Positions 26,087-31,334 of a DNA stretch of 37,770 nucleotides are shown one piece after another. The DNA lies in assembly GCA_021785355.1 (NCBI GenBank), contig JAJYFR010000002.1:74529-112298 (forward strand). The letters are read 5' to 3'. The translations under genes were made by a program, and so were the position numbers. This DNA is from a bacterium (GTDB lineage Bacteria > Patescibacteriota > Dojkabacteria > JAKAPS01 > JAJZLI01). Under the pieces are notes generated by a model. It ran no database searches and was not told the origin of the DNA. It saw only the letters and a program-made list of their open reading frames with translations. Every line of letters starts with the position of its first letter. Position 1 is the first letter of the stretch.

Positions 26087-27217
26087 ATGAATACAAAACA
26101 AAAAAACCCAAAAAATATAACAGCAATAACTTCTCTGCATGAAAAAGGTAAAACAAAAGGATTTTTAACAGAAGAAGATATACTAAATTCAGTTCCTTTT
26201 TTGGAAAATGAACTGGAGCTTTTAGAGGAACTTTTCATTCTTCTTGATAGAGATAATATAGATTTGATATATGAAGAAGAAAGACCAAAAGAAGTAGAAA
26301 TAAAATCTAAGAAAAATGTCAAAAAAGAGGTAATGAGTTTAGAGGATAAAATTAAACTTTTAAGAAGTATACAGGCAAATATTGACTCCGATCCTATAAG
26401 AGCATATCTTCAAGAAATAGGAAAAATTCCTTTACTTACAGGAGAAGAAGAAATAATTCTTGCAAAAAGAATAAAGAAAGGAGATAAGAAAGCAAAAGAA
26501 TATTTAACAACCTCTAATCTAAGATTAGTTGTTTCTATTGCAAAAAAATGGTCTAGAAAAGGTAGTTTAGATTTATTAGATTTAATTCAAGAAGGTAATT
26601 TGGGTTTGATGAGAGCTGTTGATAAATTTGATTATAAAAAAGGATATAAATTTTCGACATATGCTACATGGTGGATTAGACAGGCTATAACAAGGGCAAT
26701 TGCAGATCAAGAAAGAACTATAAGAATTCCTGTACATATGATTGAGACAATTCATCAAATGCAAAAAATAAGAGGTAAATTAGCTATTGAGCTTCAAAGA
26801 GCTCCTAAACCTGAAGAAATAGCTAAAGCCATGGGAAAAAGCATAGAACAAGTACAAGAAATAATAAAAATATCTCAATATCCAACTTCTTTATCAACTC
26901 CAGTAGGTGATGACAATTCGAGTACTTTAGCTGATTTTCTTCCAGATGAAGATACTCCAAGACCTTCAGATATAGCTAATAGAGATTATTTAAAAAACCA
27001 AATACAAGAAGTATTAGGAACTTTATCTGATAGAGAAAGAAAAGTTATAGAGCTCAGATTTGGATTACAAGATGGAGTTGCTAGAACATTAGAAGAAGTA
27101 GGAAGAGAATTTAAAGTTACAAGAGAAAGAATAAGACAAATTGAAAGTAAAGCTTTGAAAAAATTAAAAAATAAAGAAGTAGAAAGACTTCTTACCGATT
27201 ATAGAGAAATAGGGTAA
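26087..27217 (+). CDS. rpoD: RNA polymerase primary sigma factor (sigma-70)
   Basis: A 376-residue sigma-70. Region 1.1 resembles the start [17 protein letters not shown]; region 1.2 has [16 protein letters not shown]; region 2 has [31 protein letters not shown] and [13 protein letters not shown] for -10 recognition; region 3 follows; region 4 ends with [18 protein letters not shown] for -35 recognition. It is compact, with no long insert between 1.2 and 2. It is the main sigma factor that would read the TTGACA/TATAAT promoters in this window. Confidence 0.96.
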
Positions 27218-27371: not shown

Positions 27372-28007
27372 ATGAACGAATTTACAATATTTTTATTAAA
27401 ATCTGGAATACACCAAAATATGCTTTTTATTCTATTAGCTTTACCACTTGCTGCAATGTTAGTTTTGTTTGCAAAAGAGATAATAGGTATAAAATCTTTT
27501 AATTTATATACTACATCTCTAGGAGCAATAGCTCTAATATCAATTGGATCTATATTAGGTATAATACTTTTCTTACTAATAATATTAGTAGACTATATTG
27601 TGGAATATTTTATAAAAGATTTAAAATTACATTTTGCGTCAAAAATAGCAATTACCCTCTCTACTATATCTTTAGTTACAATAATATTACTGGCATTATT
27701 ACATATATATTTAGGAGTTAGCATTAATGTATCACCTTTTGCAATAATTCTTCTTATTCTTTTAACAGAAAATTTGTCTTTTACTAAAATTAATAAAGGT
27801 ATAAAAAATGGAAATATAATATATATGGAAACTATTATACTTTCTTTAATAATATATCTAATACTTGATAATTCTTTTTTAGAAACAGTTCTATTTAAAT
27901 ATCCATATATATCTATTGTAGCTATAATAATAGATGTATATATAGGAAAAACTACATCATTAAGATTAAGAGAAATATACAGATTTCGTAATATTATAAA
28001 AGAATGA
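27372..28007 (+). CDS. 7TM membrane protein of the 7TM-transglutaminase (UUP1-type) family
   Basis: A 211-residue protein of about seven helices. The C-terminal YPYISIVAIIIDVYIGKTTS and LRLREIYRFRNII match the end of the '7TM_transglut' domain (YP...N...GR-TGLRL-E--RFR), and IGIKSFNLYTTSLGAIAL matches its first part (IGIKTFG-Y-P). In relatives this domain is fused to an inactive transglutaminase domain; here it stands alone. It overlaps the ATP-grasp/protease gene by 4 bases and probably anchors or gates that enzyme at the membrane. Confidence 0.8.
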   Translation: MNEFTIFLLKSGIHQNMLFILLALPLAAMLVLFAKEIIGIKSFNLYTTSLGAIALISIGSILGIILFLLIILVDYIVEYFIKDLKLHFASKIAITLSTISLVTIILLALLHIYLGVSINVSPFAIILLILLTENLSFTKINKGIKNGNIIYMETIILSLIIYLILDNSFLETVLFKYPYISIVAIIIDVYIGKTTSLRLREIYRFRNIIKE

Positions 28008-29401
28008 AAAACCCTTTTTCAGAATACAAAAAAATATCTCAAAATCTATTAGGTATTAATGCTAGAAATAAATTATATATAGATAATAAATCTATTAATA
28101 TATCTAACTCTAAGATAAAAGTTAAAAATATACTGAATTTAGAAAAAATCCCTACACCAGAGACTCTTTTTATAATTAAAAGTTTAGAAGAATTAGAAAA
28201 CTTTGATTTTTCTCTACTTCCAAAAAGTTTTGTAATAAAACCTAATAAAGGATTAGGTGGAGAAGGAATAATAATATTTTATGGAAAAAAGAAAAAAAGA
28301 AATGAGAGAGAAGAAGATGCTTTCATATCTGCTAATAAACAAATCTATTCCTTAAGTGATATAAAAAGTCATATATTTAACATCTTAAATGGATATTATT
28401 CAATAAATAAAAAAAATGATATCGCAATTTTTGAAAAAAGAATTATTAATTCTGAATTTCTAAAACAGAATCTTAAAATAAAAGAAGGTCTTCCTGATAT
28501 AAGAATAATTATATATAAAAAATTTCCAATTATGGCTGAATTGAGAATACCTACTATAGAATCTAAAGGTAAGGCAAATTTACACTCAGGAGGAATTGGA
28601 GTAGGAATTGATATTGCTAGAGGTATTAGTACAAATGCTATTTCAAAAGATGAATATATAGAAATAAATCCAGATACAGGAGAAAGATTAAGTGGAATAA
28701 AAATACCTTATTGGAATAATATATTAGAAATGGCAATCAAATCTAGTATAGCTATAAATTCATCTTTCACAGGAGTAGATATTGCTCTTGATAAAGAAAA
28801 AGGACCTCTAGTAATGGAAGTTAATGCTAGACCTGGACTTGCTATTCAAATAGCAAACAAGTCTGGACTAAAGGAAAGATTAGAATCTGTATCTAAATTA
28901 AAAGTAAAAAATGCTAAATCTGCTATTAATATATCAAAGGAAATCTTTGGAGGAGAAATCGATGAAGAAATTGAAGAAATTACAGGAAAAATAGTAATAG
29001 GAAGAGTCGTAAAAGTTAAAATTCAAGATACAGTATACAGCGCTAAAATAGATACAGGAGCTTATTTTAGTTCTATCTCTGATAATATAGCAAAAGATTT
29101 AGGATTTGGAGAAAAAATAGAAATATTTAAAAACTTTCAAATACCTGAAACTAAGGATATAAACACTTTATATAATCTTAAAAATAAGCTTGAGAAAGAA
29201 AATCATGATATTAATATATCACTAGTAAAGTCTGCAAATGGAATAACTATAAGGCCTCTAATAGATATTTCTATATATTTTATAGAAGAAGATATAACTA
29301 TTGATACTAGGGTTTCTATTTCTGATAGATCTAATCTCTTATATGATATTCTTATTGGAAGAAAAGATTTGAAAAATTTCTTAATAGATATAACCAAATG
29401 A
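28004..29401 (+). CDS. Alpha-L-glutamate-ligase-like ATP-grasp enzyme fused to a RimB-like retropepsin
   Basis: A 465-residue two-domain protein. Residues 1-290 are an ATP-grasp ligase: FVIKPNKGLGGEG (76-88, ATP loop), EGLPDIRIII (161-170), ANLHSGGIGVGID (191-203) and the Mg-binding MEVNARPGLAI (271-281). After a linker, residues 328-465 match the 'ATP-dependent zinc protease' or RimB family, now seen as retropepsin-like: KIDTGAYFSS (348-357) with catalytic D350, then KSANGITIRPLI, SDRSNLLYDILIGRKDL. The two activities are normally neighbours, not one chain. The enzyme may add and remove an amino acid or peptide tag. Its substrate is unknown. Confidence 0.85.
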   Translation: MKNPFSEYKKISQNLLGINARNKLYIDNKSINISNSKIKVKNILNLEKIPTPETLFIIKSLEELENFDFSLLPKSFVIKPNKGLGGEGIIIFYGKKKKRNEREEDAFISANKQIYSLSDIKSHIFNILNGYYSINKKNDIAIFEKRIINSEFLKQNLKIKEGLPDIRIIIYKKFPIMAELRIPTIESKGKANLHSGGIGVGIDIARGISTNAISKDEYIEINPDTGERLSGIKIPYWNNILEMAIKSSIAINSSFTGVDIALDKEKGPLVMEVNARPGLAIQIANKSGLKERLESVSKLKVKNAKSAINISKEIFGGEIDEEIEEITGKIVIGRVVKVKIQDTVYSAKIDTGAYFSSISDNIAKDLGFGEKIEIFKNFQIPETKDINTLYNLKNKLEKENHDINISLVKSANGITIRPLIDISIYFIEEDITIDTRVSISDRSNLLYDILIGRKDLKNFLIDITK

Positions 29402-29748
29402 AGAAAAAATCTAAAATTTTTATATTTTTAAGCTTATTCTTTCTTGTATTATTCTTAATATCTACACAATTTATATTACCTCCTAAAAATAATACAGGAG
29501 GTATAATTAATATAAATGTATATATAATTGAAATAGAAATATTTTTATTTTTATTTTTCGTTATAATGAGTATTTTAAAAAATTTTAATAAAATAAATTT
29601 TTTAAATATTATAAAGAATGCCGTCATAATACCTGCGACAATAGTATCTTTATCATTATTAAATATATTTGGGTCTCTGGATATATTAATGATAATAACT
29701 ATACCTTTATCTGCTATAATACTATATATCTTTTTAAATACTATCTGA
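29398..29748 (+). CDS. Small membrane protein following the ligase-protease
   Basis: A 116-residue protein with about four hydrophobic helices (7-24, 38-60, 70-87, 92-112) and a short external PPKNNTGG loop. No family is recognised. It overlaps the ligase-protease gene by 4 bases (ATGA), so it is translated with it and may be a third part of the same membrane complex. The next gene has its own promoter. Confidence 0.6.
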   Translation: MKKKSKIFIFLSLFFLVLFLISTQFILPPKNNTGGIININVYIIEIEIFLFLFFVIMSILKNFNKINFLNIIKNAVIIPATIVSLSLLNIFGSLDILMIITIPLSAIILYIFLNTI

Positions 29749-29768: not shown

Positions 29769-31334
29769 ATGAAAAAACTCGTAACAGTATCTTTACCTTA
29801 TGCAAATAGTGAAGCACATGTAGGCCATATTGCAGGAGCATATCTACCTGCTGATATATATCAACGATTTCAAAAACTTAAAGGAGAGGATATCTTATTT
29901 CTTTCAGGTTCAGATATGCATGGAAGTGGGGTTTTGATAAATGCAGAAAATGTATCAGAAGATCCTCATTCATTTGCATTAAAATATCATAATAAATTTA
30001 AAAATATTTTTACTAAACTTGATATAGGATTTGATATTTATTCAAATACTGCAACAGAAATTCATAAAAAAAGAGTACATGATATTTTTCTAAAATTATA
30101 TAAAAATAAATATATTATTCAGAAATTAGAATATCAACCTTTTTGTGAGAATGAAAAAAGATTTTTACCAGATAGATATGTAGAAGGTGCATGTCCTAAT
30201 TGTGAAAATCCCAAAGTAAAGGTAGGTGAAAGTTGCGATAAATGCAATACTTTTATTTTATTTGATAATATAAAAAATCCAGAGTGTAAAATTTGTCACC
30301 ATAAACCAATTCTAAAAAAAACAAAAAACTTTTTTCTAGAATTACCTTTATTTGAAAAAGAAATTAAAAAATATATTAATAAAAAAAATATATTTAGAAA
30401 AACAGTAAAAGATCTATCTGAAAGTTATATAAAAACAGGCCTAATATCAAGATCAATTACTAGAGACATGAGTTATGGAATCAGTATTCCTCTTGAAGGA
30501 TTTGAGGATAAAGTGATTTATGTATGGTTTGAAGCATTAATAGGATACTTATCTATATCAGAAGAATTAAAAGGTGACAAATGGGAGGAATATTGGAAAG
30601 AACCAAGTCAAACAATTTTTTTTATGGCTAAAGATAATATTGTCTTTCATTCAATAATACTTCCATCTATTCTATTGGGATATAACAAAAATCTAGTATT
30701 ACCATACAATATAGTTTCAAATGAATATCTTCTTTTAGAGGGAGAAAAAATGTCGAAAAGTAATAATCATTCATTACTAGCAAAAGATGCTTTAAAGCTT
30801 TTTGGGAAAGATAATTTAAGATTCTATCTTGCATTAAATCTTCCTGAAGGAAAAGATTTTAATTTCCAAAAAAAAGATTTAATAAAAACAATAAATAGCA
30901 CACTAGCTTCTAATATAGGTAATTATATCAACCGAACACTGACTTTTGCATATAACAATTTTGATGGTGTAATAGAAAAATATGAATCCTTGGAAGATGA
31001 AAAATATATCAGTGATTTTTTTAAAAATATATCTTCCTCTTATGATAATTTTAAAATAAAAAAAGCAGTCAATGATATAATTTCATTTTCAGATCACGCA
31101 AATCAAAAATTTGATCAATTAAAAATATGGGAAAATAAGGATCCAAAAAATATATATATATTAATACAATATGTATATGCACTTTCTCTCCTTCTCTACC
31201 CTATAATTCCAGAATCTGCAACAAATTTAGCAAAAATACTAAATACAAAAATAAAAACAGATAAATATAAGCCTTTTTGGGGTAAAATAGAAAAACCTTA
31301 TATAATTTTCCCTAAAATAGAAAATGATGATTGA
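29769..31334 (+). CDS. metG: Methionyl-tRNA synthetase
   Basis: A 521-residue class I aminoacyl-tRNA synthetase charging tRNA-Met. HIGH-type motif HVGH (18-21 in AHVGHIAGAYLPAD), connective peptide with cysteine pairs (CPNC, CDKC, CKIC) for zinc, catalytic-domain YVWFEALIGY and the KMSKS signature at EGEKMSKSNN. It ends after the anticodon-binding helices and lacks the C-terminal tRNA-binding domain of long forms. TatD and RodZ-like genes follow with overlaps, one of the conserved-looking housekeeping blocks here. Confidence 0.96.
   Translation: MKKLVTVSLPYANSEAHVGHIAGAYLPADIYQRFQKLKGEDILFLSGSDMHGSGVLINAENVSEDPHSFALKYHNKFKNIFTKLDIGFDIYSNTATEIHKKRVHDIFLKLYKNKYIIQKLEYQPFCENEKRFLPDRYVEGACPNCENPKVKVGESCDKCNTFILFDNIKNPECKICHHKPILKKTKNFFLELPLFEKEIKKYINKKNIFRKTVKDLSESYIKTGLISRSITRDMSYGISIPLEGFEDKVIYVWFEALIGYLSISEELKGDKWEEYWKEPSQTIFFMAKDNIVFHSIILPSILLGYNKNLVLPYNIVSNEYLLLEGEKMSKSNNHSLLAKDALKLFGKDNLRFYLALNLPEGKDFNFQKKDLIKTINSTLASNIGNYINRTLTFAYNNFDGVIEKYESLEDEKYISDFFKNISSSYDNFKIKKAVNDIISFSDHANQKFDQLKIWENKDPKNIYILIQYVYALSLLLYPIIPESATNLAKILNTKIKTDKYKPFWGKIEKPYIIFPKIENDD

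Follow-up and report, generated by a model that had tools for sequence, protein, structure and literature searches.

A probable rearranged rloABC system in Patescibacteria: an RloC-type ligase fused to an RloA-like protease, beside a 7TM protein

In a 37,770-nucleotide stretch of a Dojkabacteria genome (the window), three genes on the + strand encode a 7TM protein of 211 aa (27372..28007), a 465-aa chain joining an ATP-grasp ligase to a retropepsin-like aspartic protease (28004..29401), and a small 116-aa membrane protein (29398..29748). This system is best read, from its sequence, as a rearranged rloABC: RloC and RloA are joined in a single polypeptide, and RloB lacks its extracytoplasmic part. 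In Pseudomonas aeruginosa, RloA is a retropepsin, RloB an inactive-transglutaminase-7TM protein and RloC an ATP-grasp protein (PMC12239564). A previous reading of the DNA made from its letters and open reading frames (the sequence-only reading) had described the trio and its 4-base overlaps, and both the ORF coordinates and the ATGA shared by each adjoining pair were confirmed. A sigma-70 gene lies upstream (26087-27217) and a methionyl-tRNA synthetase gene downstream (29769-31334). The 116-aa protein had no match in the Pfam scan, and among the loci searched its homologues were confined to the window's family, where they occurred in 7/8 of the genomes searched and always in the same place.

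The ligase domain (28004..28948, +, residues 1-315) is of the RloC type. Residues 13-303 matched TIGR02291 (E 1e-70) with 238 bits, below the NCBI equivalog cut-off of 314 bits, and are hence homologous without being called an equivalog; residues 24-297 matched PF14397 (E 1.5e-59). The RimK family model TIGR00768 reached only 36.6 bits (3e-9) against a cut-off of 143.4, so the domain does not belong to the RimK family. Its catalytic motifs contain K79 (FVIKPNKG) and E272 (MEVNARPG), and K79, D259 and E272 are invariant in 136/136 non-redundant fusion homologues. The sequence-only reading was right about the alpha-L-glutamate-ligase-like ATP-grasp domain, its motifs and their numbering. Structure prediction of both domains, which that reading had proposed as a check, gave a confident model of each with AlphaFold2 (mean pLDDT 88 for the single fusion chain), and the best Foldseek match of the model was the poly-alpha-L-glutamate synthetase RimK (5zct, 2.6e-11), followed by ArgX and cyanophycin synthetase (CphA).

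A Legionella plasmid carries the same families in the split order rloA-rloB-rloC. Its stand-alone RloC-like protein covers residues 8-315 of the fusion in an alignment (36% identity over 317 aa, 6.6e-62) and stops, with the C-terminus ...FSKEMFAR, where the ligase domain of the fusion stops; its RloA-like protein, taken alone, aligns with residues 329-465 (E 6e-4). Because of these alignments, we describe the fusion as an RloC followed by a 13-residue acidic linker and an RloA-like domain. The linker, GGEIDEEIEEITG (28949..28987, +, residues 316-328), is missing from the Legionella RloC-like protein and is acidic in most aligned relatives. Residues 318-327 are disordered in the model (pLDDT <50), and the relative orientation of the two domains that it predicts is unsure (pTM 0.66). 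We also considered the linker as a possible pseudo-substrate of the protease, which seems doubtful: its glutamates are interrupted, whereas RloA required a run of eight consecutive glutamates to cleave an internal reporter (PMC12239564).

The protease domain (28988..29401, +, residues 329-465) has its active site at D350, in a DTGA motif. It matched PF05618, the retropepsin family that bears the name 'ATP-dependent zinc protease', at 1e-6, with 28.9 bits when scanned alone (cut-off 27) and 24.8 bits within the whole chain, as well as the RloA3 model (4e-9) and the RloA2 model. A profile built from 30 such domains found the solved RloA-type retropepsins 9g59 (4e-11) and 9g58 (7e-11). The domain had previously been taken as RimB-like; the retropepsin and D350 stand, but the likeness is not to RimB alone, since the domain is close to secreted RloA as well. 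D350 is kept in 128/136 homologues, and in all but one of the 122 MATCAP-free chains (121/122; see below). HMMER alignments to 9g59 and 9g58, together with the motifs K-x-DTG, RP and DR, place K46, D48, R114 and R137 of RloA at K348, D350, R417 and R442 of the fusion. RloA cleaves poly-glutamate, and its R114A and R137A mutants are crippled in both this cleavage and function (PMC12239564). The putative poly-glutamate-binding residues K348, R417 and R442 are all present in 109 of the 122 chains without MATCAP.

The other 13 of these 122 chains lack the basic residues, retain DTG and form one clade (SH-aLRT 95). In all of them (13/13) the first ligase next door is CphA-like, and the loci whose first neighbouring ligase is RimK-like all keep the K348/R417/R442 positions (47/47), which suggests that neighbour ligase type and protease substrate may co-vary. 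As a repeated association this looked strong, but the 13 chains being one clade, it amounts to a single event. Because the CphA-associated clade lost the basic residues yet keeps DTG, the substrate is probably not glutamate in every lineage.

The 7TM protein corresponds to the core of RloB, as it matched PF14402 (4.9e-21) and residues 311-508 of the RloB model NF052267 (2e-12). AlphaFold2 modeled it with a pLDDT of 90, and a fold search with the model returned no PDB match with E <1. Its predicted topology is N-out/C-in: across 134 homologues, loops 1, 3 and 5 and the C-tail carry on average 1.9, 3.5, 2.3 and 5.9 K+R, compared to 0.5-1.0 elsewhere, and a conserved basic C-terminal tail (LRLxExxRFR) would lie on the cytosolic side. 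The Pfam scan found no inactive transglutaminase domain in the window's protein. The earlier proposal that the transglutaminase was lost and the 7TM core kept thus holds for the core and for the absence of the domain, while its loss can be deduced only from the gammaproteobacterial relative. In place of an inactive transglutaminase, five long versions of the 7TM protein (L092, L112, L131, L148 and L156) carry a PKD domain on the outer side of the membrane, together with a region that has no assignment; among six long relatives scanned, the extra part was PKD or had nothing assigned, and PF14400 was found in none. In the fusion ORFs profiled, no TM segment and no signal were seen. Since an ATP-grasp enzyme needs ATP, the fusion lacks both of these features and the C-tail of the 7TM protein is predicted to be cytosolic, the fused protease must by this reasoning be cytosolic too.

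The fusion is widespread in the phylum. We collected 136 non-redundant homologues, those with a name all belonging to Patescibacteria, and 134 of them have a 7TM ORF directly upstream, and 51 of 58 relatives matched the fusion, most of them across both domains. A scan of named genomes gave 80 loci, all from Patescibacteria where the title tells (Moranbacteria, Dojkabacteria, Woesebacteria, Falkowbacteria, Doudnabacteria, Kerfeldbacteria, Jacksonbacteria, Andersenbacteria and Portnoybacteria), and the 7TM gene was directly upstream of the fusion in 80/80. When 241 genomes were sampled evenly across the phylum, 91 gave a match, weak ones included; every strong match to the full ligase lay in a frame of 424 aa or more, the size of the fused form, and no stand-alone RloC-sized frame appeared among the matches listed. 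An assembly artefact, which the sequence-only reading had named as a danger, is ruled out by the presence of the same fusion in independent genomes from many projects. Split rimB-rimK pairs are found in some other Patescibacteria, which are without the fusion (L166-L172).

Compared to rloABC, the window holds the same three blocks in one operon, i.e.: a TIGR02291 ligase, a PF14402 7TM core and an RloA-like retropepsin with the basic residues. The differences are several. C and A form one chain, with C first and the acidic linker between them; RloA has a signal peptide and a conserved cysteine pair, whereas the fused protease has neither (there is no cysteine in residues 326-465) and is predicted to be cytosolic like RimB; the inactive transglutaminase domain of RloB, which faces the periplasm, is missing; and the fused form, widespread in Patescibacteria, is often accompanied by extra RimK/CphA-like ligases. 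RloA of Pseudomonas is a secreted protein while RloC stays in the cytosol, and matches to RloB have been reported as 96% Proteobacteria (PMC12239564). A second relevant system is the RimBK hybrid, found mostly in Flavobacteriales and Rhodobacterales, in which a retropepsin and an ATP-grasp ligase also share one polypeptide, as in DP2392 of Desulfotalea psychrophila (PMC11957791). There, RimB is N-terminal and a RimK-family ligase C-terminal, while our fusion has the ligase, of RloC type, before the protease; the available portion of that source reports no 7TM partner for RimBK, and the fusion has one upstream. Polyglutamylated RpsF is cleaved by the protease portion of DP2392, but the hybrid showed no ligase activity on RpsF. 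The sequence-only reading, which knew these families as separate neighboring genes, had missed both rloABC and the published, proteolytically active RimB-RimK hybrid. A ligase and a retropepsin in one chain (RimBK) and an operon of this kind (rloABC) are already published. What is new, as far as the literature shows, is the joining of RloC to RloA next to a 7TM core, how widely this form occurs in Patescibacteria, its cytosolic protease and the replacement of the latter by MATCAP.

This replacement was found in 14 chains (L032-L034, L146-L155 and L173; L155 seems frame-broken), in which the retropepsin has no flap and the chain runs on into a MATCAP domain (PF08014, 5e-35 to 8e-52 in the chains scanned) that keeps HExxxH. 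The DTG motif or the basic residues are gone in most of them; in several, the ligase and MATCAP are still separated by a shrunken remnant of the retropepsin that seems to be dead, and in L173 the retropepsin is almost gone. The same domain is known from the MATCAP/TMCP tubulin carboxypeptidases (PMC10499314) and from the QEGLA bacterial relatives (TIGR02421). It is absent from the window's protein; the eukaryotic members act on tubulin tails, human ones being tubulin carboxypeptidases and deglutamylases, and a ligase fusion is not mentioned in the available portion of PMC10499314. A literature search returned nothing on DUF1704 together with ATP-grasp. The window's genome gave no MATCAP match, in a search in which no control genome matched either. 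Grouping the MATCAP rows as a single clade was disfavored (p-AU 0.024, for a group named after the data had been seen), and the starred branches of the tree require at least two changes for the gain of the domain, so that, judging from the tree, MATCAP probably joined the ligase chain at least twice. Other arrangements exist: L097 has an intact retropepsin and a divergent MATCAP domain in one chain, and the loci L159 and L165 contain MATCAP as a gene of its own. In L165 (G127), this gene adjoins a 921-aa chain (L165:1911-4673) made of an RloC-type ligase, an intact retropepsin and an ATP-grasp_3 domain (residues 594-774). The swap of retropepsin for MATCAP in the same chain supports a ligase-plus-trimmer, and its simplest reading is that the ligase needs to be joined to a peptidase, of whatever kind, able to cut what it makes. 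Because active-site loss accompanies the gain of another peptidase, the peptidase activity itself seems to be under selection. The swap also strengthens the earlier view of ligase and protease as opposing reactions in one chain, which our results support.

Many loci contain further ligases. At least one additional RimK- or CphA-like ATP-grasp gene was found within 4.5 kb downstream in 78/136 loci, an underestimate given that many loci are short. The window's genome has no extra ligase beside the fusion; two adjacent RimK-family genes lie instead on another contig (C11; L138:4076-5889), directly upstream of mraZ-rsmH-ftsL-ftsI (the ftsL call being based only on its size and position). With identities of 58% and 51%, the two are orthologous to the two genes that come after the fusion in G006, a member of the window's family, and RimK-family pairs also occur in G001, G002 and G005. 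Beside the fusion of G041, a GNAT acetyltransferase is fused to a CphA-like ATP-grasp (L026:2913-4382), the same domain layout as in the osmolyte enzyme N-acetylglutaminylglutamine synthetase. In one clade with long 7TM proteins, the fusion is followed by a gene of ~920-940 aa (L156:2893-5700, L157, L160 and L162), which in L156 encodes a class A penicillin-binding protein (Transgly and Transpeptidase).

The fusion enzyme probably builds glutamate-like chains, and its protease probably trims them. We give an even chance to the explanation that the Patescibacterial Rlo form is a polymer synthase with built-in trimming, docked on the 7TM protein and serving envelope or osmotic homeostasis. Driven by ATP, the ligase domain would attach single amino acids in turn to the C-terminal carboxyl of either an acceptor or a free oligomer, and the product would most likely be poly-alpha-L-glutamate, the amino acid used being presumed. 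RimB and RloA act as dimers (PMC11957791; PMC12239564), and two fusion chains would likewise pair, their retropepsin domains forming one active site that may cut the same poly-acidic chain once it is long enough. Cutting would set chain length, recycle glutamate and supply new short primers. The complex may sit on the cytosolic face of the 7TM protein as its anchor, and this protein may hand the product on to the cell envelope or relay signals from it; both anchoring and transport are guesses, the 7TM model having no PDB match. The output would be homeostasis of the envelope or of osmotic balance, like that of the Pseudomonas rloABC system, which is needed for osmotic stress tolerance and in which deletion of rloB or rloC rescues the loss of the three RloA proteases (PMC12239564). 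Several points speak against this explanation: no product is known even for RloC, the clade with CphA-like ligases has lost the basic residues, DP2392 showed no ligase activity on RpsF, the domain orientation in the single-chain model is unsure, and the 7TM model has no PDB match.

The sequence-only reading had proposed a different outcome, a write-and-erase system in which the ligase tails a specific, perhaps membrane, protein and the fused protease removes the tail. Opposing activities of this kind are known, as RimK tails RpsF and RimB removes the tail (PMC11957791), and the family that takes the retropepsin's place, MATCAP, trims C-terminal residues off tubulin tails (PMC10499314). However, tagging is just one reading of them. 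RimB also stimulates the ATPase and polymer synthesis of RimK through direct contact, yielding free poly-alpha-glutamate of up to 28 residues (PMC11957791), and because RimB both cuts tails and stimulates free-chain synthesis we favor a polymer synthase with trimming, which explains the data no less well than tagging does. Moreover, the one to three further ligases of many loci resemble stepwise product synthesis more than a single tag, and no acceptor is in sight: ribosomal protein S6 of the window's genome ends in VKIQKNV, with no C-terminal glutamate acceptor or tail, and an exact search for four-Glu ends (GAR x4 then TAA, covering TAA ends only) gave zero hits in the window's assembly, as did the backward control. 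Tagging of a protein is in our view possible but doubtful. Its particular form known from RimABK of Pseudomonas, in which a ligase and a cytosolic retropepsin also act in opposition on poly-alpha-glutamate, requires an RpsF with a suitable C-terminus and a RimK-family ligase; RimK-type ribosome tagging by the fusion is ruled out by the ligase family and the S6 tail.

The contact between RimB and RimK could alternatively mean that the retropepsin is mainly a regulatory subunit that activates the ligase allosterically, with proteolysis secondary. The persistence of an apparently dead remnant in several MATCAP chains is in line with this, yet the near-universal D350 in chains without MATCAP, and the pairing of active-site loss with the gain of a peptidase, make it unlikely. 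Least probable of all is a role in modifying peptidoglycan-related material or an envelope peptide, with the 7TM protein handling a lipid-linked form: the mraZ-rsmH-ftsL-ftsI genes after the RimK pair, the class A penicillin-binding protein gene directly after the fusion in one clade and the beta-lactam and shape phenotypes of rlo mutants (PMC12239564) point that way, but the first two are neighborhood evidence that most loci lack, and upstream neighbors include sigma-70 and other unrelated genes.

Beyond the preferred synthase with built-in trimming, we tentatively propose an old machine, docked at the membrane and common to Patescibacteria, whose peptide-polymer ligase is covalently tied to a dedicated peptidase and would make an as yet unseen poly-amino acid for envelope or osmotic balance; this would be mostly poly-glutamate, with another polymer in the CphA-associated clade, and the peptidase would have been replaced at least twice. 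In Pseudomonas, rloABC matters for stress tolerance and antibiotic susceptibility (PMC12239564). The product of rloABC, even that of RloC, is not known, and the fusion, present across a phylum of bacteria with tiny genomes, indicates that the two enzymes work on a single chain and lets a common substrate be predicted for them; the swap from an aspartic protease to a metallopeptidase makes this shared-substrate idea testable. If the proposal is true, the linkage of ligase and peptidase is important enough to have survived a swap to an unrelated peptidase, a relative of tubulin deglutamylases. The swap parallels the tailing of eukaryotic tubulin, in which TTL-type ligases write and such peptidases erase. 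To our knowledge, few envelope polymers are known from Patescibacteria, and a product of this machine would therefore be new biology.
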